NCBI GenBank assembly: GCA_023663345.1
Contig: JAMPHR010000005.1
Coordinates: 1 to 64,000, forward strand
Direction: 5' to 3'
DNA: 64,000 bases
DNA from: Paenibacillus sp.
GTDB lineage: Bacteria; Bacteroidota; Bacteroidia; Bacteroidales; Muribaculaceae
Positions within the stretch are counted from its first letter, which is position 1, and each line of letters opens with the position of its first letter. Shown here one piece after another: positions 6,506 to 24,700 of the stretch. The notes beneath the pieces are model-generated. The model worked only from the letters and a program-made list of their open reading frames with translations, made no database searches and had not been told where the DNA came from. The translations under genes were made by a program, and so were the position numbers.

Positions 6506-7420
6506 TCATTTCCACTCGCGCCGTTGCAGATAGTCGGCGAGCCACACGCCCGCGAGTATCAACGTGCATCCGGCGAGGCCGATCGGTGTGATGGGTTCGT
6601 GGAGGATTATCACCGAGAACACGAGGGTGACAACCGGCTGGAAATACAGATAGTTGGATGCCATCATGGCTCCGATCTTGATAACTGTTATGGCCCATAG
6701 GAGGAAGGCGGCCATTGAGCATATCAGGCCGAGAAACAGCAGGTTGTAGATCACGGTGGGGCGCATCATCACTTCGAGCGGAGCTATCGTAGGCTCGATG
6801 GCCAGGAAGGGGAGGGCGGTGAGGACACCATAGAAGAAGACCTTGCGGGTGATGAATCTCGCGCTGTAATTGGCGTTGAGCGGCTTGATGAGGAGGCAAT
6901 ATATGGCCCAGCAGAATGCCGAGAGGAGTGCCAGGAGGTCGCCCAGCGGGTTGATGCTCATATTGAAACTGCTGTTGAATATCACGAGTCCGACACCGAG
7001 AAACGCTACGGCCGATCCTATATAGGCTCCGCGCCCGGGACGGTCGGTCTTGTATATCACACCCATGAGCAGGACAGTGAGCAGTGGGGGAAGCGAGGTG
7101 ATGAGCGATACGTTGCTCACCAGGGTGTACTCGAGCGCCACATTCTCCGAGATGAAGTAGATGGAGCCGGCTACCATGCCACACACGACGAGCAGAAGCT
7201 CATCCTTGAGAGAATTGGCGAATATTTTCTTATGACAGATGGCCAGCATACACACGTAGGCGAGAAGTGACCTGTAGATGTAGATCTCGATCGGATGCAG
7301 GCCATTGTCGAGCAGTACACGGGTTGATATGAACGAGAGGCCCCAAGCTGTGACTACGAGGCATGCGAAAATGTGATATAACCAGATGTTGCTCTTGGCG
7401 GAAACGCGCTTTGTTTCCAT
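6506..7420 (-). CDS. EamA/DMT-family membrane exporter
   Basis: Membrane protein of 304 residues with about ten hydrophobic helices arranged as two EamA repeats, typical of drug/metabolite transporters such as RhaT/YdcZ-type permeases. The N-terminal motif AWGLSFISTRVLL is characteristic of the first repeat. The substrate cannot be read from sequence; relatives export amino acids, purines or other metabolites. It has its own well-formed Bacteroidetes promoter (7483-7513) and lies 78 bases upstream of the tricorn-like gene on the same strand, so partial cotranscription is possible. Confidence 0.88.
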   Translation of the reverse strand: METKRVSAKSNIWLYHIFACLVVTAWGLSFISTRVLLDNGLHPIEIYIYRSLLAYVCMLAICHKKIFANSLKDELLLVVCGMVAGSIYFISENVALEYTLVSNVSLITSLPPLLTVLLMGVIYKTDRPGRGAYIGSAVAFLGVGLVIFNSSFNMSINPLGDLLALLSAFCWAIYCLLIKPLNANYSARFITRKVFFYGVLTALPFLAIEPTIAPLEVMMRPTVIYNLLFLGLICSMAAFLLWAITVIKIGAMMASNYLYFQPVVTLVFSVIILHEPITPIGLAGCTLILAGVWLADYLQRREWK

Positions 7421-7482
7421 AATGCGTATTAAGATTTTTGGTACACCGCTGTTCCTGCGGATGATTGATGATTGAATACGTG

Positions 7483-7513
7483 CAAATTTAGAAAATTTTT
7501 TCCAATTGTCAAA
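7483..7513 (-). promoter_or_regulatory. Bacteroidetes promoter for the EamA gene
   Basis: On the minus strand a -33 TTTG (7510-7513) is followed after 19 bases by the -7 box TAAATTTG (7483-7490). This matches the Bacteroides consensus TTTG-N19-TAnnTTTG. The predicted leader is about 55 nt. Confidence 0.75.
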
Positions 7514-7691
7514 ACCAAAGAGTGCCAGACTATGGGATTCGCTATATATAGTTAATGGTTATAATATGAATCGAAAATGCGAATTATCAATATGGAATTT
7601 TTATTAGATACTATGTTAAGTTATGATATATCAAGTTGAACTATGTTTTGATGTTTTTGTTCTACTTAAAATTAGGGATACTCTTATTTTT

Positions 7692-9239
7692 ATGCATAGC
7701 AATATATTCACTCAGGTACTATCATTTCTCAAAGTTAAATATACTGAGAGATATGCTAATAGCTTATTTATAAACCAACCATATAGAAATACCTTATATG
7801 GTATAGGATTATTATTGGATCATTACAATATTAAGCATGAATGTCTCCAACTTAAGGAGAAGAAGAATGTGTTAAAAAACTCATTACCTCCAGTAATAAT
7901 CGCATATCAAGGACGGTTCTGCATTTTATCGAGGGTAAGAGGTAGTTCTGTTATTCTTATAGACGCAGAGGGGCAGGAAATAGAGCTAACTGGTGTTGAA
8001 TTCTTTGCCCAATGGGATGGCATAGGATTATTTATTTATCCCAGTGAAAACTCAAGGGAACCGAACTTCAAAAAAAATAATGTGAGTGATATAATTTTAA
8101 ATTTAAAAAATGCATTATTAATAGGTTGTTCTATTATCTTGATTGTATTTATCTATGTCCAAAATTTTGAAACTACATCAGTTTCATATAACGCGATTTT
8201 AATTTCTAATATTTTAGGTGTCTATATAACATATTTACTTCTCCAAAATGAATTATTAATAAAAAATAATATAGCTGATAAATTATGTTCTTTAATTGGG
8301 TATCACAGTTGTGATAAAGTTACAAAATCAGAGGCTAGTTCTATATTCGGTATTGCCAAATTAAGTGAAATAGGATTTGCTTATTTCAGTGTAAATATAA
8401 TCACATTACTCTTAAATCCAAATTTGGAGGCATATTTTTCATTATTTGCAATTTTTGTTTTGCCATTCACTTTTTGGAGTATATGGTATCAGAAATATCG
8501 TATCAAAAGCTGGTGTGTATTATGTCTCATGACCATTGGTGTAATGTGGGTACAAGCGATATTATGCGTTATTTTTGGTATGTTTAAATTTGAGAACTTT
8601 AATGTTAAATATATTTTCGTTACGGGTATTAGCTATATTATTGGTATTTTGTGTATAAATAGGATTATACCTTTTATAAAAGCTATGAGGGAGTCACTTA
8701 TATGGAAATTGGAATACGAAAGTCTTAAAGTTCATGATAAAGTAATAGATGCTTTCACTAAGGATATGCCATTATATAAAACAGACAAAGATAGTTGTTC
8801 AAGCATCATCTTTGGAAATTCCAACTCAAAATATAAGATTACTGTATTAAGCAATCCCTATTGTCAGCCATGCGCAAAAATGCATCAACGTTTGAATAAA
8901 ATAATTATTCATGATGTTTGTATTCAGTATGTATTCACATCTTTTTCTCCACTACTAGATAACATAAATAGATATATAATAGCATTTTATAAAAGATTTG
9001 GCGCTGAACATTGTTGGAATATGCTTACTAATTGGTATGAATTTGGGAAAAAACAAAATGAAGAGTTCTTTGAATCTGTTGGTTTAAACATTGAAAAGTC
9101 GGATGTAGTAGATGAATTTCAAAAACATGTGTTGTGGCGAAAAGATAAGCTGTTTATTGGAACTCCTACAATTTTAATAAATGGAATGATTCTAACAGCC
9201 CCATATTCTGTAGAAGATTATGTATATGTCGCAAAATAG
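7692..9239 (+). CDS. C39-like / VKOR / thioredoxin fusion membrane protein
   Basis: Disulfide-forming membrane protein, 515 residues from the ATG at 7692; an upstream ATG at 7623 adds 23 residues that fit the family poorly. Residues about 1-130 resemble a C39 peptidase fold of the non-catalytic type: the TLYGIGLLLDHY and FFAQWDGIGLF segments fit, but the usual HFVV histidine site reads GRFCIL. The middle (about 135-330) is a VKOR domain with several membrane helices and active-site Cys275/Cys278 (CVLC). The C-terminus is a thioredoxin-like domain with Cys391/Cys394 (CQPC) and a cis-proline segment GTPTILING. VKOR-Trx fusions oxidise cysteines of exported proteins. The gene is strongly AT-rich compared with its flanks, suggesting transfer. 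It precedes a small four-cysteine protein, its likely client. Confidence 0.85.
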   Translation: MHSNIFTQVLSFLKVKYTERYANSLFINQPYRNTLYGIGLLLDHYNIKHECLQLKEKKNVLKNSLPPVIIAYQGRFCILSRVRGSSVILIDAEGQEIELTGVEFFAQWDGIGLFIYPSENSREPNFKKNNVSDIILNLKNALLIGCSIILIVFIYVQNFETTSVSYNAILISNILGVYITYLLLQNELLIKNNIADKLCSLIGYHSCDKVTKSEASSIFGIAKLSEIGFAYFSVNIITLLLNPNLEAYFSLFAIFVLPFTFWSIWYQKYRIKSWCVLCLMTIGVMWVQAILCVIFGMFKFENFNVKYIFVTGISYIIGILCINRIIPFIKAMRESLIWKLEYESLKVHDKVIDAFTKDMPLYKTDKDSCSSIIFGNSNSKYKITVLSNPYCQPCAKMHQRLNKIIIHDVCIQYVFTSFSPLLDNINRYIIAFYKRFGAEHCWNMLTNWYEFGKKQNEEFFESVGLNIEKSDVVDEFQKHVLWRKDKLFIGTPTILINGMILTAPYSVEDYVYVAK

Positions 9240-9325
9240 GTTAATAATGATTTATTTGTTAGTATGTTGTTGAACGTTTATTGCTTGCATGATGTTACAT
9301 ATACTAAACCATTAATCTTATAATT

Positions 9326-9604
9326 ATGGACTCAAGCAATAAAAAAGATTTATCGGATGCCAAGCGTCTAGATGATGCACAGGCTAAGGGTGTTGTGGCT
9401 GATCCTTCAACATCAACAGATGATCTAAACTTCCTCCCGGCATCTATAGATAAACCTAAATTGGATGCTTGTATAGGCAAAAAATTCCATGATCCCTGTT
9501 TTTGGACGCATAATTATATTACATATTATGGACGATGCGTATACAACCAATTAGCTTTCGAGAAGGAGCTATATTGTTCCGATATTTTCAGAGATGAAGA
9601 ATAG
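9326..9604 (+). CDS. Small four-cysteine protein, possible exported peptide precursor
   Basis: Protein of 92 residues with no confident family. The first 45 residues are polar, acidic and cysteine-free (DLSDAKRLDDAQ...), like a leader or spacer. The C-terminal half carries four cysteines at 49, 58, 71 and 84 (motifs DACIGKKFHDPC, GRCVY and LYCSD), enough for two disulfides. There is no Sec signal peptide, no Gly-Gly cleavage site and no membrane helix, so its export route is unclear. It lies 86 bases after the VKOR-Trx fusion and before a secreted thioredoxin-like gene, both redox proteins. I infer that it is the substrate of that machinery; alternatives are a regulatory or metal-binding small protein. 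AT-rich like its neighbours. Confidence 0.7.
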   Translation: MDSSNKKDLSDAKRLDDAQAKGVVADPSTSTDDLNFLPASIDKPKLDACIGKKFHDPCFWTHNYITYYGRCVYNQLAFEKELYCSDIFRDEE

Positions 9605-9630
9605 AGTAGCTTTTGGCAGTGATAATATTT

Positions 9631-9660
9631 CAAGTCCACAATACTAGTATTGTGGACTTG
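9631..9660. repeat. Perfect 30-bp palindrome
   Basis: The two 15-base arms (left arm CAAGTCCACAATACT) are exact reverse complements with no spacer. It starts 27 bases after the stop of the four-cysteine protein and runs into the presumed -33 region of the next gene. It may be a terminator, although no T-run follows, or an operator. Confidence 0.7.
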
Positions 9661-9688
9661 TATGTTAGTAAGATATCACTTATATTTG
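9658..9688 (+). promoter_or_regulatory. Promoter for the TlpA-like gene
   Basis: The -7 box TATATTTG (9681-9688) fits TAnnTTTG. A TTG at 9658-9660, the last bases of the palindrome, lies 20 bases upstream and may serve as the -33 element. The predicted leader to the ATG at 9712 is under 20 nt. Confidence 0.6.
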
Positions 9689-9711
9689 TGAAAAATTAAA
9701 AGCTTACATCT

Positions 9712-11250
9712 ATGTCTGTTTATCCTAAATCTATCGCCATAGCGTTATTCGTATTGATAGGAGCTATCTGTGGCCAATCATCTGCGCTTGACAGGACTAA
9801 CTTTATGCGCAATGGTGTTGCTGAGGTCAGATTGAACATAGAGGATAACGGAAATATTCCGGATAGCTTAGAGGCATCCATCATCACTCTATCACTATTT
9901 GATCGGCCATTTGAGAGTATGACAGTCAAAATGAATAGAGTAGGTAACAGCTTTGCACTATCAGTGCCGTTATATACCAACGATGCGATTGTCGGGATAG
10001 AGATTGAATCACCTGAACAACGATTTGCAGTAGGAATGATCGAGATATCTCAAAACAGTCCGCTAATAATTGATGGATATTTTGATCCCAATAGAGTGCT
10101 AATACTTTCCAAATCAAATGATACAGGTGTCAATAAATATGAATTAGGACCTACGCCGGAAAATAAGAGCATAGACATTGCTAATATCATATATCGTTTT
10201 GTATCGTACCGAATCGGCTTAGACGAAAGAGAGCCATCAATACAGAGTGACGATTACAATGATTGGAAATCAGTCAAGGCAAAGCTGGATTCTCTATATG
10301 AAATTCAGTTAGAACATGCTTTGAATGGCAGAACCATACCCGAGGCCGTAAACGATTGGCTCATCAACAGCTTGAAATATTTCTATGCGGCTAATTGGCG
10401 ATTCAATTATAAAGAGCGGGCAGAAAGAACATTTAATGTAAAAGGTGTAGTGGATGCCCCGCCGTTGGAGTACTATGCTTTCTTGAATGACATAGATTTC
10501 TCTTCCATATTGAATCATTCCACTATTTTTGGTCCGTATTATTTATTAGATAAAATGATTACCCAACTTCCGATAGAAATTAAACCTATCGGAGAAACAC
10601 CCGTAGATACATGGGAAAAAGAAATCAAAGATAAGTTAACAGCCATAATGCCCGATCCGGAGCCTGTTTTAATGGATCTGTTGGCAATGACCTCCTATCT
10701 GCAACAGATCAAAGAATACAATAGACCATTGAATAATATTCAAATCAACAATATAAAAGATGGTTTCAATGCAGATATTAGTTCGATTATCTTGGACATT
10801 AACAGTTCTATGATTTCGGACTTAGATCCGAATACCCTCATTGCAGACTATATTGGTAAACAATTTTCATTGGATGAATTCTTGAAAGAGTATCCAGGCA
10901 CACCCGTTATTGTTGATTTATGGAATACGTGGTGCGCTCCGTGCATAGAAGCTCATAAAAAAATGAAGTCGGTTTTTAAGGCCGGTAGTAGTTCTGACGG
11001 TATTCTGCGTCTATATATTTGCGATGAATCTTCCCCGCTTAATGAGTGGGAGAGATTGGCTCCACACATCGGAGGAGTACAGATCCGGTTATCCTCCAAA
11101 GATATGGAAAGGATACTTACACGATTTGAATTGACAGCCTTTCCGTCTTATTTGTTTTTCAACAACAAGCATGAATTGGTAAATAAGCAAACCGGATTTT
11201 CAGATATCGATCAATTCACGAAAATTGTAGATCAACTGATAGATCAATGA
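9712..11250 (+). CDS. Secreted TlpA-like thioredoxin-fold protein
   Basis: Protein of 512 residues with a Sec signal (MSVYPKSIAIALFVLIGAIC; cleavage probably near residue 25). The middle 350 residues have no recognised family. The C-terminal about 130 residues form a TlpA/AhpC-type thioredoxin domain: Cys408/Cys411 in WCAPC, an upstream VIVDLWNTW strand and a cis-proline segment AFPSYLFF. Family members reduce or shuffle disulfides in the periplasm. It closes the AT-rich island, following the four-cysteine protein, and appears to have its own promoter. It could act as the isomerase or reductase partner of the upstream VKOR-Trx protein. That pairing is inferred from position only. Confidence 0.85.
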   Translation: MSVYPKSIAIALFVLIGAICGQSSALDRTNFMRNGVAEVRLNIEDNGNIPDSLEASIITLSLFDRPFESMTVKMNRVGNSFALSVPLYTNDAIVGIEIESPEQRFAVGMIEISQNSPLIIDGYFDPNRVLILSKSNDTGVNKYELGPTPENKSIDIANIIYRFVSYRIGLDEREPSIQSDDYNDWKSVKAKLDSLYEIQLEHALNGRTIPEAVNDWLINSLKYFYAANWRFNYKERAERTFNVKGVVDAPPLEYYAFLNDIDFSSILNHSTIFGPYYLLDKMITQLPIEIKPIGETPVDTWEKEIKDKLTAIMPDPEPVLMDLLAMTSYLQQIKEYNRPLNNIQINNIKDGFNADISSIILDINSSMISDLDPNTLIADYIGKQFSLDEFLKEYPGTPVIVDLWNTWCAPCIEAHKKMKSVFKAGSSSDGILRLYICDESSPLNEWERLAPHIGGVQIRLSSKDMERILTRFELTAFPSYLFFNNKHELVNKQTGFSDIDQFTKIVDQLIDQ

Positions 11251-11299
11251 CGTGTGTAAAATAGATATTGACAATCTATCGGAATGTCTCTAAAAATTT

Positions 11300-11338
11300 A
11301 AGCCCGACAGCTTGAACGGTGAGCAAGCTGTCGGGCTT
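11300..11338 (-). terminator. 15-bp stem terminator
   Basis: Bases 11300-11314 pair perfectly with 11324-11338 around a nine-base loop. On the minus strand the stem is followed by AAATTTTTAG, on the plus strand by no T-run. It therefore fits a minus-strand transcript ending after the small gene at 11373-11552 better than the plus-strand TlpA-like gene, though it may stop both. Confidence 0.7.
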
Positions 11339-11372
11339 TAGATCTTAGATTAGATTACTACTATGGCACGTT

Positions 11373-11552
11373 TCAGTCGTTAGAGGGACGGGATTCTGAC
11401 AGGTAATCGGTTGTTGCATATACCTGCTGGGAAGAGGAACGTGACTCCTGGTTGGGTGTCCAGTCGGCCAGAAAGTCGTGCGAGTTGGGCGTAGCGGAAC
11501 CGTCAATTGCATAGGCTCCATAGGCATTGAAGAAAGAGTTGGAAGTTTCCAT
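11373..11552 (-). CDS. Possible 59-residue protein of unknown function
   Basis: Short reading frame starting METSNSFFNAYGAY and ending SESRPSND. It is rich in Ser, Asn, Ala, Asp and Tyr, with no cysteine, signal peptide or membrane helix. Codon choice (GCC, CTG, ACC, CCC) matches the GC-richer native genes and not the adjacent AT-rich island. A good terminator for this strand follows 35 bases downstream. No clear -7 box or ribosome site was found; upstream lie three phased A-tract repeats (11615-11647). I do not recognise the family. An additional 10 upstream codons in frame look non-coding. Confidence 0.5.
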   Translation of the reverse strand: METSNSFFNAYGAYAIDGSATPNSHDFLADWTPNQESRSSSQQVYATTDYLSESRPSND

Positions 11553-11614
11553 GTAATTAATTAGGTTTGGTATATAAAACATTTATGTGTAACAGATAAA
11601 CAAATGTGTTTCTG

Positions 11615-11647
11615 AAAAAGTTCACAAAAAGTTGAGAAAAAGTTGAG
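11615..11647. repeat. Three phased 11-bp A-tract repeats
   Basis: Three tandem units: AAAAAGTTCAC (11615-11625), then AAAAAGTTGAG twice (11626-11636, 11637-11647), followed by a further A5. The 11-base spacing is close to one helical turn, so the stretch should be intrinsically curved. It lies 63 bases upstream of the small minus-strand gene. Confidence 0.75.
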
Positions 11648-11700
11648 AAAAATTACAAATTTGTCACAATTGTCAGATCTGTAGAGGTTTATGTCAGGAG

Positions 11701-11750
11701 AAAAAAGCCTCCGGAACGATACTTTTTTGTTTTATCGTTAATCGTTCCGG
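11701..11750 (-). terminator. Terminator of L-asparaginase
   Basis: A perfect 10-bp stem (11711-11720 with 11741-11750, arm CCGGAACGAT) with a 20-base loop is followed on the minus strand by AGGC and six T. It begins 28 bases past the asparaginase stop. Confidence 0.75.
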
Positions 11751-11778
11751 ATTGTACGGTGGTGGGGAGCAGGTGGTG

Positions 11779-12804
11779 CTACAGCGTGACCTCGCCACAA
11801 AGGTTGACCGAGAACCGTGTGGCGACAGCCGATGGGGTGAGCCCAAGGCCAAACAGATACATCAGTTTGGTGATAGCGGCCTCGGATGTCATGTCGTGTC
11901 CCGAGATCACGCCACAGTTGGCCAGGCGGTCGCCTGAGACGTAACGGCGGGCATGAACACCGCCGTTGACACACTGGGTGACGTTCACTATCACCACTCC
12001 GCGGTCGACAGTGCGCTTGATTTCCTCGAGAAACCATGGGGCGGTGGGGGCATTGCCGGCGCCATAGGTGCGGAGCACTATTCCCTTTATGCCGGGGGTA
12101 TTGAGCATGTAGCGCAACGCGTCGTGACTCATGCCGGGATGGAGGTCGATGGTGATGACTCCGGGATCCATCTGGGTGTTCACGTGGAGGGGACGGCGCT
12201 CGTTGGGACGGCGCAGGGCTTTTTCGGCAAAGTGTATGCCGAGTCCTATCTTGGCAAGCTCGGGGTAGTTGTTGCTTTTGAAGGCATTGAAATTGTCGGC
12301 ACTCATTTTGGTGGAGCGGTTTCCGCGCCACAGGTAGTTCTCAAACAGTATCGCTACCTCCTGTACCATAGGATCGCCGTTGAAATCGGTGGCTGCGGCT
12401 ATCTGCAGGGCGGTGATGAGGTTTTCCTCGCCGTCGGTGCGCACCTCGCCGATGGGGAGCTGCGAGCCGGTGATTATGACGGGCTTGTCGAGATGAGCGA
12501 GCATGAATGAGAGGGCCGAGGCTGTGTAGGCCATTGTGTCGGTGCCGTGAAGCACCACGAAACCGTCGTAGCTATCGTAATTCTCGGCTATCGACAGGGC
12601 TATCTCCTTCCATCCCTCGGGACCCATATCGCACGAGTCTATGGGGGTGAACTGGATATTGTCGATATGATAGTCGAGCATCTTTACCTTGGGCACATTG
12701 TCCATGAGGTGAGTGAAATCAAAGGGTTCGAGAGCCTTGGTCTCGGGATTCTCGATCATCCCTATTGTGCCACCGGTATAGATGATAAGGATACGGGGTG
12801 TCAT
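11779..12804 (-). CDS. ansA: L-asparaginase, type I
   Basis: Hydrolyses L-asparagine to aspartate and ammonia. The 341 residues fit the family length. The first catalytic threonine is Thr13 in YTGGTIGM; the second centre is Thr88-Asp89 in LHGTDTM, followed by the conserved ITGSQLP segment. There is no signal peptide, as expected for the cytoplasmic type I enzyme. The gene stands alone with its own -7 box (12834-12841) and terminator. It may process asparagine released from imported peptides. Confidence 0.95.
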   Translation of the reverse strand: MTPRILIIYTGGTIGMIENPETKALEPFDFTHLMDNVPKVKMLDYHIDNIQFTPIDSCDMGPEGWKEIALSIAENYDSYDGFVVLHGTDTMAYTASALSFMLAHLDKPVIITGSQLPIGEVRTDGEENLITALQIAAATDFNGDPMVQEVAILFENYLWRGNRSTKMSADNFNAFKSNNYPELAKIGLGIHFAEKALRRPNERRPLHVNTQMDPGVITIDLHPGMSHDALRYMLNTPGIKGIVLRTYGAGNAPTAPWFLEEIKRTVDRGVVIVNVTQCVNGGVHARRYVSGDRLANCGVISGHDMTSEAAITKLMYLFGLGLTPSAVATRFSVNLCGEVTL

Positions 12805-21227: not shown

Positions 21228-21259
21228 CAAAGTTATGGATTTTTGCCTTCATGACCAAA
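21228..21259 (-). promoter_or_regulatory. Promoter of the M16 peptidase, next to the start codon
   Basis: On the minus strand TTTG (21256-21259) is separated by 20 bases from the -7 box TAACTTTG (21228-21235). Only seven bases lie between the -7 box and the ATG, so transcription should start at or next to the start codon. Confidence 0.75.
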
Positions 21260-21341
21260 TTGGAAGTTGACACGTCCTATAGTGTGCCGTGTAATAAGAA
21301 TGGTGATGCTACCGTGTTGGTTTTGATGATATTAGTGCCCG

Positions 21342-21635
21342 TAAGGCGCATTATTAGATATAAGAATCCGTATTATCGGAATTTAGTATTCAATGAAGTT
21401 GTAGTGTTTGAAAATCTGTCGAAAAAGTAGCATAATGGTGGCAAATTAGGCCAATTCGTGACAGATGAAATGTTAAAACGATGCTCTGTTAACATTTATT
21501 GACATAATATATTTTAACACGTATTTAAAGATTATTACTTTTGCGCCCAAATCATTTATTAAAGTGTAATCTTTCCATAAGAATTATATACAAATCTTCA
21601 TAATAACACCTGTAAACTTCCTATAATGCGCCTTA
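21342..21635. repeat. 13-bp inverted repeat pair flanking a promoter
   Basis: TAAGGCGCATTAT at 21342-21354 and its exact reverse complement at 21623-21635, 268 bases apart. The pair brackets the -7 box of the SusC gene. A role as regulator sites is possible; chance cannot be excluded. Confidence 0.45.
21536..21543 (+). promoter_or_regulatory. -7 box for the second SusC/SusD operon
   Basis: TACTTTTG fits TAnnTTTG. No convincing -33 TTTG lies 17-23 bases upstream. The start codon at 21736 is 192 bases away, leaving room for leader regulation. Confidence 0.5.
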
Positions 21636-21735
21636 TCATCATATTGGATTCCGGCGTGGGGAAGTCTGCGATACATTCCAATAAGTACATAAATACACTA
21701 TCATCTATTATTCTAACTACATTTATTTATCAAGT

Positions 21736-24700
21736 ATGAAAAAATTGTTTCTTCTACTTGTGGCCGTCATCACGATGAGCCTCACCGCTCTGGCTCAGGA
21801 CCAGAAGGTAAGGGGTATAGTGTTTGGCGTTTACAACGGTACTGAACCTCTGGTAGGAGCTACCGTCAAGGGAGTAGGGACCAATGTCGGTGTCACTACC
21901 GATATCAATGGTGTCTTTGACATCATGCTCCCCGTTACAGTAAAGAAAATCCAGGTGTCATACGTGGGTATGCGTACCCAGGAGTTTGACATCACTCCCG
22001 GACAGGAAATGGTGGTCACTCTCGAGGGCGAGACCTCTCTTGACGAGGTTGTGGTGACAGCATTCGGTGTAAAGCGTGACCGTAAAGGTCTCGGATATGC
22101 CGTGCAGGATCTTAAGGCTGACGACCTTAACACGGCCGGAACAACATCGCTCTCAAGCGCCATGCAAGGCAAACTGTCGGGTGTGGAGATACGTCCGTCA
22201 TCGGGTGCTCCCGGTGCCTCAAGCAACATCACCATCCGTGGCGTGCGCTCATTCTCAGGCAACAACGCACCTCTGTATGTGATCGACGGTATGCCTATCG
22301 AATCGACCCCCGACGTGGTGCAGACCGCCAACGGCATGGTGACAGATGCAAGCTATGCTGACCGTAGCATCGATATCAACCCTGACGACATTGAGTCGAT
22401 CAACGTGCTCAAGGGCCAGGCCGCAGCCGCCCTCTACGGTATCCGTGCCACCAATGGCGTGATCGTGATCACCACCAAGCGTGGCGGAGGTCTCCAGTCG
22501 TCCAAGCCTCTGATCACAGTGTCGACCGACCTCTCGTCCGAGCGCATCTCGCGTAAATTCAAGCATCAGGATGTGTATGCCCAGGGTATGGGCGGAGAGT
22601 ACAACCCTACTGCCTCGATGACATGGGGTCCGAAGATCTCCGAGCTGCCCAACGATGCTACCTATGGCGGTAATACCGATAACAAGTACACCCAGCTGTA
22701 CGGCAAGCATCCCGGCATGTATTACAGCACCAAGCGTGCTCTTGCAGGTCTCGACGGATGGACCTCGCCGCAGATTTATGACAATGTGGGCGATTTCTTC
22801 TCCAACGGATTCACCGAAAATGCCAATTTCTCGATTTCGCAGCGCACTGACCGCACCTCGTATGCTTTCGGCCTGAACAACTCCCACCAGGATGGTGTGG
22901 TGAAGAATACCGGCCTTGACCGTTGGGGCGCACGTGGCGCACTCGACTGGTACATCAACAAGGAGTGGAAGCTCGGTTTCACAGCCAACTATGTACACAC
23001 CAATATCCGCACAGCTCCCCAGGCCAACTCGGGTATCGTGAACGTGGTGTACTCCGCTCCCGCCGAGTATGATCTCAAGGGGATACCCTCGTCAGTGCCC
23101 GGAGATCCCTCCCAGCAGACATCGTTCCGCTCAACCAGCTTCAACAACCCCTACTGGTGGGCTGAGAACAACTCCTACAGACAGTCTACCCAGCGATTCT
23201 TCGGTAACGCATACGTGGAATACCGTCCCAATATCAACTGGGGGGACAATTATGATCTCGTGATCAAGGAGCAGATGGGTATCGATGCCTACACCTCGCG
23301 TTACTCCAATATCCAGGAGGTAGGCTCGGCCGGCAATGCTTCAGGTTATATCGAGAACGAGAGCTATACCCGCCAGATATTCAACAACCTTATCACGGCC
23401 AACTTCACCGCTGAATTTGGTGCCGACCGTGAGTGGAACTTCGGTCTGCTCGTGGGTAATGAGATCAACAACGATCATCTCACCGCCACCGATTATATCG
23501 GTTCGGGCCTTGCTTTCTACGGCCAGCCTACCATCGGCAACTGCGCTACCCTCACCTATGGATATGAGGCTCCCGCCCAGGACCGCACAGTGGGTCTGTT
23601 CTTCAACGCATCGGCATCGTGGCGCGACATGCTGTTCCTGAATGTGACCGGACGTAACGACTGGGTATCTTCCATGCCCAACGGCAACCGCTCGTTCTTC
23701 TATCCCTCGGTATCGCTCGCATGGGTGTTCACCGAGCTCGAGGCTCTGAAAGGTAACAATATCCTCACCTTCGGTAAGGTGCGCACCTCGTATGCCGAGG
23801 TAGGCCAGGCCGGAGCATACGTCAACAACTTCGCTTACACTCCATCCTACGGCGGTGGATTCTATGCCTTTTACCCCGTGAACTACCCCATCAAGGGTGT
23901 GACATCGTTTGTGCCTTACTGGCGTGAGTATGACCCCAACCTCAAGCCTCAGACCACCAAGAACTATGAGCTGGGTCTCGACCTGCGTCTCTGGAACGAC
24001 CGTGTGAAGTTTGAGTATACCTACTCTTATCAGGATGTGCGCGACCAGATATTCCAGGTGCCCATGGACGGAGCAACCGGTTACCAGAGCATCATGACCA
24101 ACGGCGGTCGCATCACCACCAACACCCATGAGATCAATGCGTCGGTGACAGCCTACACTTCCAAGGATATCGACGTGGAGGTGGGTCTGAACTGGACCAA
24201 GTACAAGTCTATGGTCAAGGAGCTGGCCCCCGGCGTGGACAACATCATGCTCGGCGGATTCGTTGAGCCTCAGGTACGTGCCTACACCGGTTACGGTTAT
24301 CCCGTAATATTCGGTAACTCGTTCCTGCGCGATGATGCCACCGGTCTCATGATACTCGATTCCGACGGTCTGCCCATGACCAACGGTGAGTCAACCGTAA
24401 TCGGCGAGTGTACACCCGACTTCAATATGGGATGGAGCACCAATATCCGCTACAAGCGCTTCAACCTCTCCACAACATGGAGCTGGCAGAAGGGCGGACA
24501 GATGTATCACGGCACCTATGGCACAATGCAGATGTTCGGTGCCACCACCGAGTCTATCAACCGCGACGTGCCTCTCCACGTGGTAGGTATCGACTATGAG
24601 ACAGGAAACCGTGTGGAGCATGATGTCGACCTGTATGACTGGAACCAGATATACTATGACATTTCCGAGTCGATGATCGTTGACACCGATTTTGTCAAGC

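Follow-up and report, generated by a model that had tools for sequence, protein, structure and literature searches.

A putative disulfide-forming module in an AT-rich island of a Muribaculaceae genome

The window analysed here is a stretch of 64,000 nucleotides (positions 1 to 64,000, forward strand, contig JAMPHR010000005.1, assembly GCA_023663345.1) from a gut bacterium recorded as Paenibacillus sp., placed by GTDB in the family Muribaculaceae (Bacteroidales, Bacteroidota). Its AT-rich island (7500..11350) carries three plus-strand genes: gene 1, encoding a fusion of C39-like, VKOR and DsbA-like domains; gene 2, encoding a small protein with four cysteines, here called the client; and gene 3, encoding a TlpA-like protein. 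As judged from the sequences, the three genes are a real, recurrent oxidase-client module and not a chance arrangement, because the same genes stand in the same order in another genus (genome G024). We propose that gene 2 encodes a disulfide-bonded precursor of the double-glycine (GG) type, and that gene 1 is its own disulfide-installing enzyme, the bonds being made before export. This explanation is tentative, and our confidence in it is a little under even.

Association of the long fusion with the client

Profile searches covered 297 Muribaculaceae genomes. The fusion profile matched 143 of them, mostly through a short form of about 340 residues without the thioredoxin domain, and the long fusion was found in at least 16 (the copy in G086 is broken by stops, and that in G171 is in pieces). 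The client profile was built from alignment A1, which consists of 17 cores chosen by a pattern requiring four cysteines. It matched 17 genomes at E up to 0.01, 13 of them below 1e-5; four matches with E between 5e-4 and 0.01 (G068, G189, G089, G173) do not enter the co-occurrence count, and leader and core showed that G210 belongs to the family. Among the matches listed, the long fusion occurs in 11 of the 13 client genomes against 5 of the 284 others (p about 1e-14, kinship among genomes ignored). This agrees with the initial annotation, which had taken the membrane protein as the oxidase and the small protein as its client. By locus, an A1-type protein lies within 3 kb of the long fusion at 11 of 21 sites (in L074 as a weak 61-residue piece). 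Another small cysteine-rich open reading frame (ORF) adjoins it at six (ORF lists read by eye; L089 is itself in pieces), and the remaining sites end at a contig edge (3/21) or are broken (L087).

The short form served as a control at 20 loci, read up to 5 kb on each side and in some cases cut by contig ends. Matches to the A1 protein, to LanC-like proteins and to outer-membrane-barrel proteins were absent from all 20; a glycosyltransferase match was present in three, and a small thioredoxin, detected through the gene-3 profile, in six. The window genome (G000) also has the short form, as a separate gene on contig C11 (L042:9366-10681). There it adjoins a 98-residue WCPHC thioredoxin without a signal sequence, and this pair recurs in the family; it may be a general cytoplasm-facing oxidase.

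The three proteins and their relatives in Bacteroidota

Gene 1 (7692..9239, +) was delimited by Pfam matches, alignments A2 and A4 and an AlphaFold2 model with a mean predicted local distance difference test score (pLDDT) of 87.3. Its likely start is position 7692, where aligned homologues begin; the ORF opens earlier, at 7623. The predicted 515-residue protein begins with a C39-like domain (residues 1-123, 7692..8060), which is the proposed leader reader. Six transmembrane (TM) helices follow (8067..8729), namely TM0 (residues 126-157) and VKOR TM1-TM5, as placed by the alignments and the structure model. The redox pair Cys199/Cys207 (8286, 8310) and the VKOR CxxC pair Cys275/Cys278 (8514, 8523) are invariant over 29 aligned fusion sequences. 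The protein ends in a DsbA/BdbD-like thioredoxin domain (8754..9239), with CQPC at residues 391-394 (8862-8873).

The domain assignments rest on matches to Pfam VKOR (E 7e-16, 59 bits, cut-off 27.5), Thioredoxin_4 (E 5e-5) and Peptidase_C39 (E 2.6e-4, 21.3 bits, cut-off 22; 24.3 bits in the genome search). The last match begins only at profile position 22-23, and the first cysteine of gene 1 comes no earlier than residue 51, so that the catalytic cysteine of Peptidase C39 is absent. The N-terminal domain nevertheless has the C39 fold, and several of its columns are at least 90% conserved over the 29 sequences, 11 of which are short forms. In the structure search, the C-terminal domain resembled DsbA/BdbD; VKOR structures were absent among the best 50 rows, which the thioredoxin and C39 parts filled, and the VKOR fold was not contradicted. 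A PDB sequence search with the VKOR part gave only weak DsbB rows.

Gene 2 (9326..9604, +; ORF listing, alignment A1) encodes 92 residues, for which neither Pfam nor NCBIfam gave a match at E up to 1. It has no signal peptide, and by eye, family alignment and structure model its N-terminus is leader-like. This part (residues 1-38, 9326..9439) has pLDDT below 50 and fits a loose leader pattern; neither GG nor AG occurs in the first 45 residues. The core (9452..9601) comprises one short helix and three strands and holds Cys49, Cys58, Cys71 and Cys84. With this core, the PDB sequence search returned no credible match, and the best fold match was weak, to the secreted antifungal protein NFAP2 (8rp9, Foldseek E 1.4).

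A search with gene 2 itself in 198 family genomes, 47 of which gave rows at E up to 1, yielded a single clear relative over the full length, a few partial relatives and numerous rows at noise level. The A1 profile found only G000 among 295 genomes drawn from the order (E up to 0.001), and a divergent relative lies outside the order (L154). Client proteins share the leader-like N-terminus, followed by a variable spacer that is often Ser-Gly-rich, and some have two cores. The four cysteines are invariant in A1 (17/17) by construction, because the picking pattern requires them. All seven full proteins found by profile and not by pattern (L077, L078, L080, L082, L083, L085, L092) also keep the four, whose lack the initial annotation would have counted against its reading; the exception, L033, ends before the fourth, and some other cores are cut by contig ends.

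Gene 3 (9712..11250, +), of 512 residues, was identified by its signal-type N-terminus (by eye), Pfam/NCBIfam matches, alignment and a PDB search. The N-terminus is hydrophobic, the thioredoxin-like matches are under the curated cut-offs, and the PDB matches are thiol-disulfide oxidoreductases. The C-terminal domain has a TlpA/ResA-type thioredoxin fold with a CxxC motif, here WCAPC (10930-10944), and all six aligned relatives have WCxPC. Domain matches and sequence thus agree with the composition initially annotated for the three genes: C39-like/VKOR/thioredoxin, four cysteines and WCAPC. Three relatives of gene 3 stop before the thioredoxin domain (L027:647-1768, L085:4798-5895 and L091:15382-16500, the last without a thioredoxin match in the domain search), so the constant part of these proteins is the N-terminal region, which probably has a function of its own. 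Some relatives resemble lipoproteins, as read by eye. A reductase or isomerase role for gene 3 is possible, and a holding or delivery role equally so.

Outside the family, nine plasmid records matched gene 1, of which eight were read (H9, covering 16% of the query, was left out). Parabacteroides locus L124 has the fusion, a 59-residue cysteine-rich leader peptide, a DUF4369/thioredoxin protein, a LanC-family protein, two glycosyltransferases and a peptidase-containing ABC transporter (PCAT). In Emticicia (L126 and L131), the order is VKOR, small peptide, TlpA, with PCAT and HlyD present. Spirosoma L127 has the fusion with an unannotated 62-residue GG peptide, PCAT and HlyD; Aureibacter L128 has two GG peptides, PCAT and HlyD; Hymenobacter L133 has TlpA, PCAT and HlyD and no peptide annotation. 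In Parabacteroides L125, the fusion is split into two genes, and a cysteine-rich GG peptide is present. No PCAT was seen in the stretches of L125 and Hymenobacter L132.

Across 118 genomes sampled from the phylum, the long fusion (E up to 1e-40) was present in 11 of the 117 others. Twelve long-fusion loci from other Bacteroidota were fetched. A cysteine-rich leader peptide lay within 3.5 kb in 11 (10 by script, L158 by eye; none was found within that distance in L162, and the site in L157 is NG, not GG), a peptidase-ABC transporter within 7 kb in nine, and a TlpA-like gene in five. In the L154 peptide, an ordinary GG leader precedes a core with a match to positions 11-43 of the Muribaculaceae profile (18.9 bits), and gene 2 is therefore most likely a derived double-glycine peptide precursor. 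A leader motif of the type L-S/T-x-E-M/L-K, followed by GG or AG, was also sought. It was found in loose form in 18 of 22 A1-type proteins, with GG/AG directly after it in two of the 22; in the comparison set of peptides from GG-type clusters, GG/AG followed in 11 of 11.

Scanned against named genome contigs, gene 1 matched only two Pedobacter loci. At both, GG-leader peptides with six cysteines (L021:7198-8338, L022:3668-4351) adjoin the fusion, glycosyltransferases and a peptidase-ABC transporter, and one of these peptides, when tested, matched an animal knottin-toxin family below the cut-off.

Among 18 genomes having clients or long fusions, a full-length peptidase-ABC gene was found in six. 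None was found in G000 (87% complete), G024 (99%) or G110 (94%); the sole C39 match in the contigs of G000 is gene 1, and the three-gene island carries no peptidase-ABC transporter.

Orientation, proposed mechanism and alternatives

Six TM helices place the two ends of gene 1, the C39-like and thioredoxin domains, on the same side of the membrane as the VKOR cysteines. TM0 is present in 37 of 37 C39-VKOR proteins, and in 34 of them the active-side loops are more net positive than the opposite loops (mean difference +3.2). No TM0 was seen in eight actinobacterial VKORs, each of which has a negative difference (mean -6.0). Beside the short-form gene, a thioredoxin of 97-120 residues without a signal sequence (by eye) occurs in 14 of 21 cases, with none found in seven; a Rhodococcus partner protein has an N-terminal anchor. 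Based on TM0, the reversed loop charges and these signal-less thioredoxins, we predict that the leader reader, the VKOR site and the thioredoxin domain of gene 1 face the cytoplasm. An archaeal precedent reportedly exists: a 2017 title by Hibender is said to concern an Aeropyrum pernix VKOR acting in two compartments.

We suggest the following pathway. The non-cutting C39-like domain would hold the leader helix at the N-terminus of the client. The attached DsbA-like domain would exchange a disulfide into the four core cysteines, and the VKOR part, as expected from its family, would move electrons from cysteines to quinone. TM0, the distribution of charge over the loops and the signal-less client would together place all three domains on the cytoplasmic side, so that the bonds would precede export; of the whole pathway, we are least sure of this step. 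Once the product has reached the periplasm, gene 3 would exchange its thiols or hold it, and the product itself would most likely be an antimicrobial or signalling peptide. The version in the window may have derived from GG-leader clusters with a peptidase-ABC exporter, with loss of the GG. In a broader form, in which we have somewhat less confidence, an inverted VKOR, a non-cutting C39 reader and a DsbA domain would make up a leader-guided, cytoplasm-facing disulfide synthase, and thus a modification of the type seen in ribosomally synthesised and post-translationally modified peptides across Bacteroidota, with the Muribaculaceae clients mostly lacking the GG site.

Several points weigh against this explanation. 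The first is the neighbourhood of the clients. At 24 client loci, the long VKOR lies within 3 kb in 11 and at about 7 kb in L091, and the stretch read holds none in the other 12 (L024, L026, L027, L029, L030, L033, L037, L077, L082, L085, L090, L092). Seven of these have a gene-3-type neighbour, and five (L026, L029, L082, L090, L092) have neither. Several of the 12 stretches are short contigs, and for all except L030 and L090 a long VKOR lies elsewhere in the genome. The client-oxidase link, as read from these genomes, is strong by genome and looser by neighbourhood, because half of the client loci lack VKOR in the stretch read. Clients with neither neighbour in the stretch read, which the initial annotation would have counted against its reading if they were regular, were thus seen at five of the 24 loci.

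Further, the leader of gene 2 is among the most divergent of the client family, and the leader and peptide counts given above use loose patterns with no background rate alongside. G000 is only 87% complete, and clients without GG occur also in the PCAT-bearing genomes G061, G063, G080 and G134, so loss of the GG and loss of the exporter are not simply coupled. As to orientation, 13 further Bacteroidota fusions, 10 of them scorable, gave eight positive, one zero and one negative loop difference. The charge rule is a predictor and no more, and the periplasmic orientation of the eight control VKORs is one that we assume. Most DsbA-like domains are found in the periplasm, the N-terminus of gene 3 is of signal type, and disulfides in class II bacteriocins are generally considered to arise while the peptide is exported or afterwards.

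The foremost alternative is one that we consider unlikely although a serious contender. The same dedicated module would have the usual topology, with the VKOR, DsbA-like and (through TM0) C39-like parts in the periplasm, the exported peptide being oxidised there and its leader docked outside. The DsbA/BdbD-like C-terminal domain of gene 1 and the N-terminus of gene 3 suit this placement, as do known VKOR-thioredoxin fusions, which we take to act outside the cytoplasm. It is opposed by the reversal of the charge bias relative to the actinobacterial VKORs, and it would require an N-terminal domain of 120 residues to be translocated without a signal sequence. Moreover, the leader in GG clusters is presumably removed during export, and would hence be unavailable for docking.

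It is improbable that the cluster is an ordinary bacteroidetocin-like one, in which gene 1 only supplies disulfides, the C39-like domain is vestigial and the leader is unread. Bacteroidetocin regions likewise bring together a four-cysteine GG peptide, a thiol oxidoreductase, a TM protein and a peptidase-ABC transporter (PMC6671954), but the conserved C39-like columns and the good fold argue against decay, and neither G000 nor G024 yielded a full-length peptidase-ABC gene. Slightly less probable still is a small protein that stays inside the cell, as a cysteine-rich metal or redox buffer kept oxidised by the fusion. The missing signal peptide and the failure to find a full-length peptidase-ABC gene in G000, G024 and G110 would fit; other relatives of the fusion, however, stand in GG/PCAT/HlyD clusters, the best fold match of the core, weak as it is, is a secreted protein, and the Ser-Gly linkers and glycosyltransferase neighbours of sister loci suit an exported product. 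Finally, a general cell oxidase that adjoins small proteins only by a habit of islands is very improbable: the widespread short form, often with a small thioredoxin, does look general, and half of the client loci lack VKOR in the stretch read, but in the window genome the short form has a gene of its own, all 20 short-form control loci are free of a nearby A1 protein, and genome by genome the long form goes with the client.

A recurrent enzyme joining a leader-reading fold to disulfide formation would answer part of the question of how Bacteroidota build disulfide-rich peptides, and would offer a genome-mining handle for unannotated cysteine-rich peptides. Should the orientation be as predicted, it would be a rare bacterial case of programmed cytoplasmic disulfide formation.

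Comparison with known systems, and the site of the island

The nearest known systems are the bacteroidetocins (class IIf, Bacteroidetes), described here from the accessible part of PMC6671954. Bacteroidetocins A and B have four cysteines and all members at least two; the leader of about 15 residues ends in GG. Their regions comprise the GG peptide, a thiol oxidoreductase, a 5-TM protein and a peptidase-ABC transporter, and that of bacteroidetocin A has low GC. The peptides kill Bacteroidales, activity is attenuated on removal of the peptide, TM or oxidoreductase gene, and Bacteroides is said there to be without general disulfide machinery. An oxidoreductase dedicated to a small protein, which the initial annotation had regarded as new, is thus already known in kind. 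In the window, too, a small four-cysteine peptide is encoded next to a thiol oxidoreductase and a protein with several TM helices, at low GC. Unlike those regions as so described, it joins C39-like, VKOR and DsbA parts in one protein, has a 92-residue client with a degenerate leader of about 38 residues without GG, and lacks a peptidase-ABC transporter in the island, none having turned up elsewhere in the genome either. The enzymes are likened by domain and gene content, and the peptides were not aligned. On this comparison, the module is a derived member of disulfide-bonded double-glycine peptide systems such as the bacteroidetocins. What is new, as the sequences suggest, is an oxidase with a C39 domain that lacks the catalytic cysteine, a fold that reads such leaders. 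A second new element is that the Muribaculaceae clients mostly keep the leader helix without GG, no peptidase-ABC exporter having been found in this genome. A third is the predicted cytoplasm-facing arrangement, under which the disulfides may be a leader-guided modification made before export. The literature search, with subscription literature largely outside its scope, returned no paper on VKOR/C39 fusion-peptide clusters, and the accessible parts of PMC10352776, PMC4555120, PMC8546649 and PMC12453122 name no such cluster.

Other systems share single parts. VKOR-thioredoxin fusions are known. Actinobacterial VKORs with DsbA-like partners have the same VKOR core with two cysteine pairs, and a thioredoxin-fold protein is annotated alongside in eight of eight plasmid loci, once as TlpA; gene 1 differs in the added C39-like domain and TM0, the reversed loop charges and the linked leader peptides. 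The Aeropyrum pernix VKOR is archaeal, and we assume that it has neither a C39-like domain nor a dedicated peptide. Compared with the C39 domains of ABC exporters and the double-glycine protease (8vp5, 6mpz), gene 1 has no catalytic cysteine and no attached transporter. The core of gene 2 has no sequence match to NFAP2, and the Z score is so low that they perhaps share only a common arrangement.

Bacteroidetes GG-peptide clusters with TIGR04157 glycosyltransferases and LanC-like proteins have counterparts in several Muribaculaceae sister loci. They differ in having radical SAM enzymes (presumably their usual context) in place of the VKOR fusion, and the window has neither a glycosyltransferase nor a LanC-like neighbour. 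Glycosyltransferase neighbours were observed at L025, L028, L031, L032, L074, L075, L078, L079, L080, L083, L089, L091 and L123, at several of which LanC-like proteins also occur, together with a protein of about 930-1000 residues that resembles outer-membrane barrels. One such glycosyltransferase had TIGR04157 as its best match (276 bits, below the cut-off of 400), two LanC-like proteins matched PF05147 below its cut-off, one barrel-like protein tested had no Pfam match, and the other neighbours were assigned by BLAST similarity. These neighbours suggest glycosylated relatives of the client.

The AT-rich island itself was confirmed. Its three ORFs (7623-9239, 9326-9604 and 9712-11250, all +) were recovered in the ORF listing, and GC at 7501-11300 is 0.333 against 0.528 for the whole window. 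GC is 0.291, 0.380 and 0.383 for genes 1 to 3, genes 1 and 3 having the lowest two values among the 39 window ORFs of at least 150 residues, and third-position GC of gene 1 is 0.24. The flanks are an EamA-family gene (6506-7420, -) on the left and, on the right, a 69-residue ORF (11373-11582, -) beside an asparaginase gene (11779-12804, -). Same-genus relatives G117, G130 and G240 have the EamA-asparaginase adjacency with one different long gene between, and no EamA match was seen in the fetched stretch of the other seven of ten relatives; on this gene content, the interval (6506-12804) is a variable site. Within the genus (27 genomes), A1-type client matches occur in two, G000 and G210, and the long fusion, among the matches listed, in G000 only. 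The closest module is that of G024 (L023), at about 42, 59 and 42% identity for genes 1, 2 and 3; for gene 2, non-synonymous divergence (dN) is 0.33 and synonymous sites are saturated. Low GC, patchy occurrence in the genus, the variable site and a closest module in another genus support the initial idea of transfer, and the island was probably transferred into this site. In 18 sister loci, the GC of the fusion gene ranges from 0.29 to 0.54, being low in many and not all.

Between genes 2 and 3, the repeat scan found a perfect 15-bp inverted repeat (9631..9660), possibly a regulatory site. An imperfect 26-nt hairpin, 85% complementary, lies 3' of gene 3 (11289..11349); it is terminator-like by eye, and the terminator scan did not list it. 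The promoter and terminator scans of the stretch gave signals at shuffle level only. PADLOC and PHROGs had no match for the island proteins; an anti-phage function or phage origin was rejected on this ground and because gene 1 had no match in phage records. One IMG/VR contig carries a distant cluster (L123). Small ORFs similar in appearance to the 69-residue ORF stand at the same place in G117 and G240. A second short GC dip lies outside the island, at 21250-22000 (0.32 at 21251-21750).

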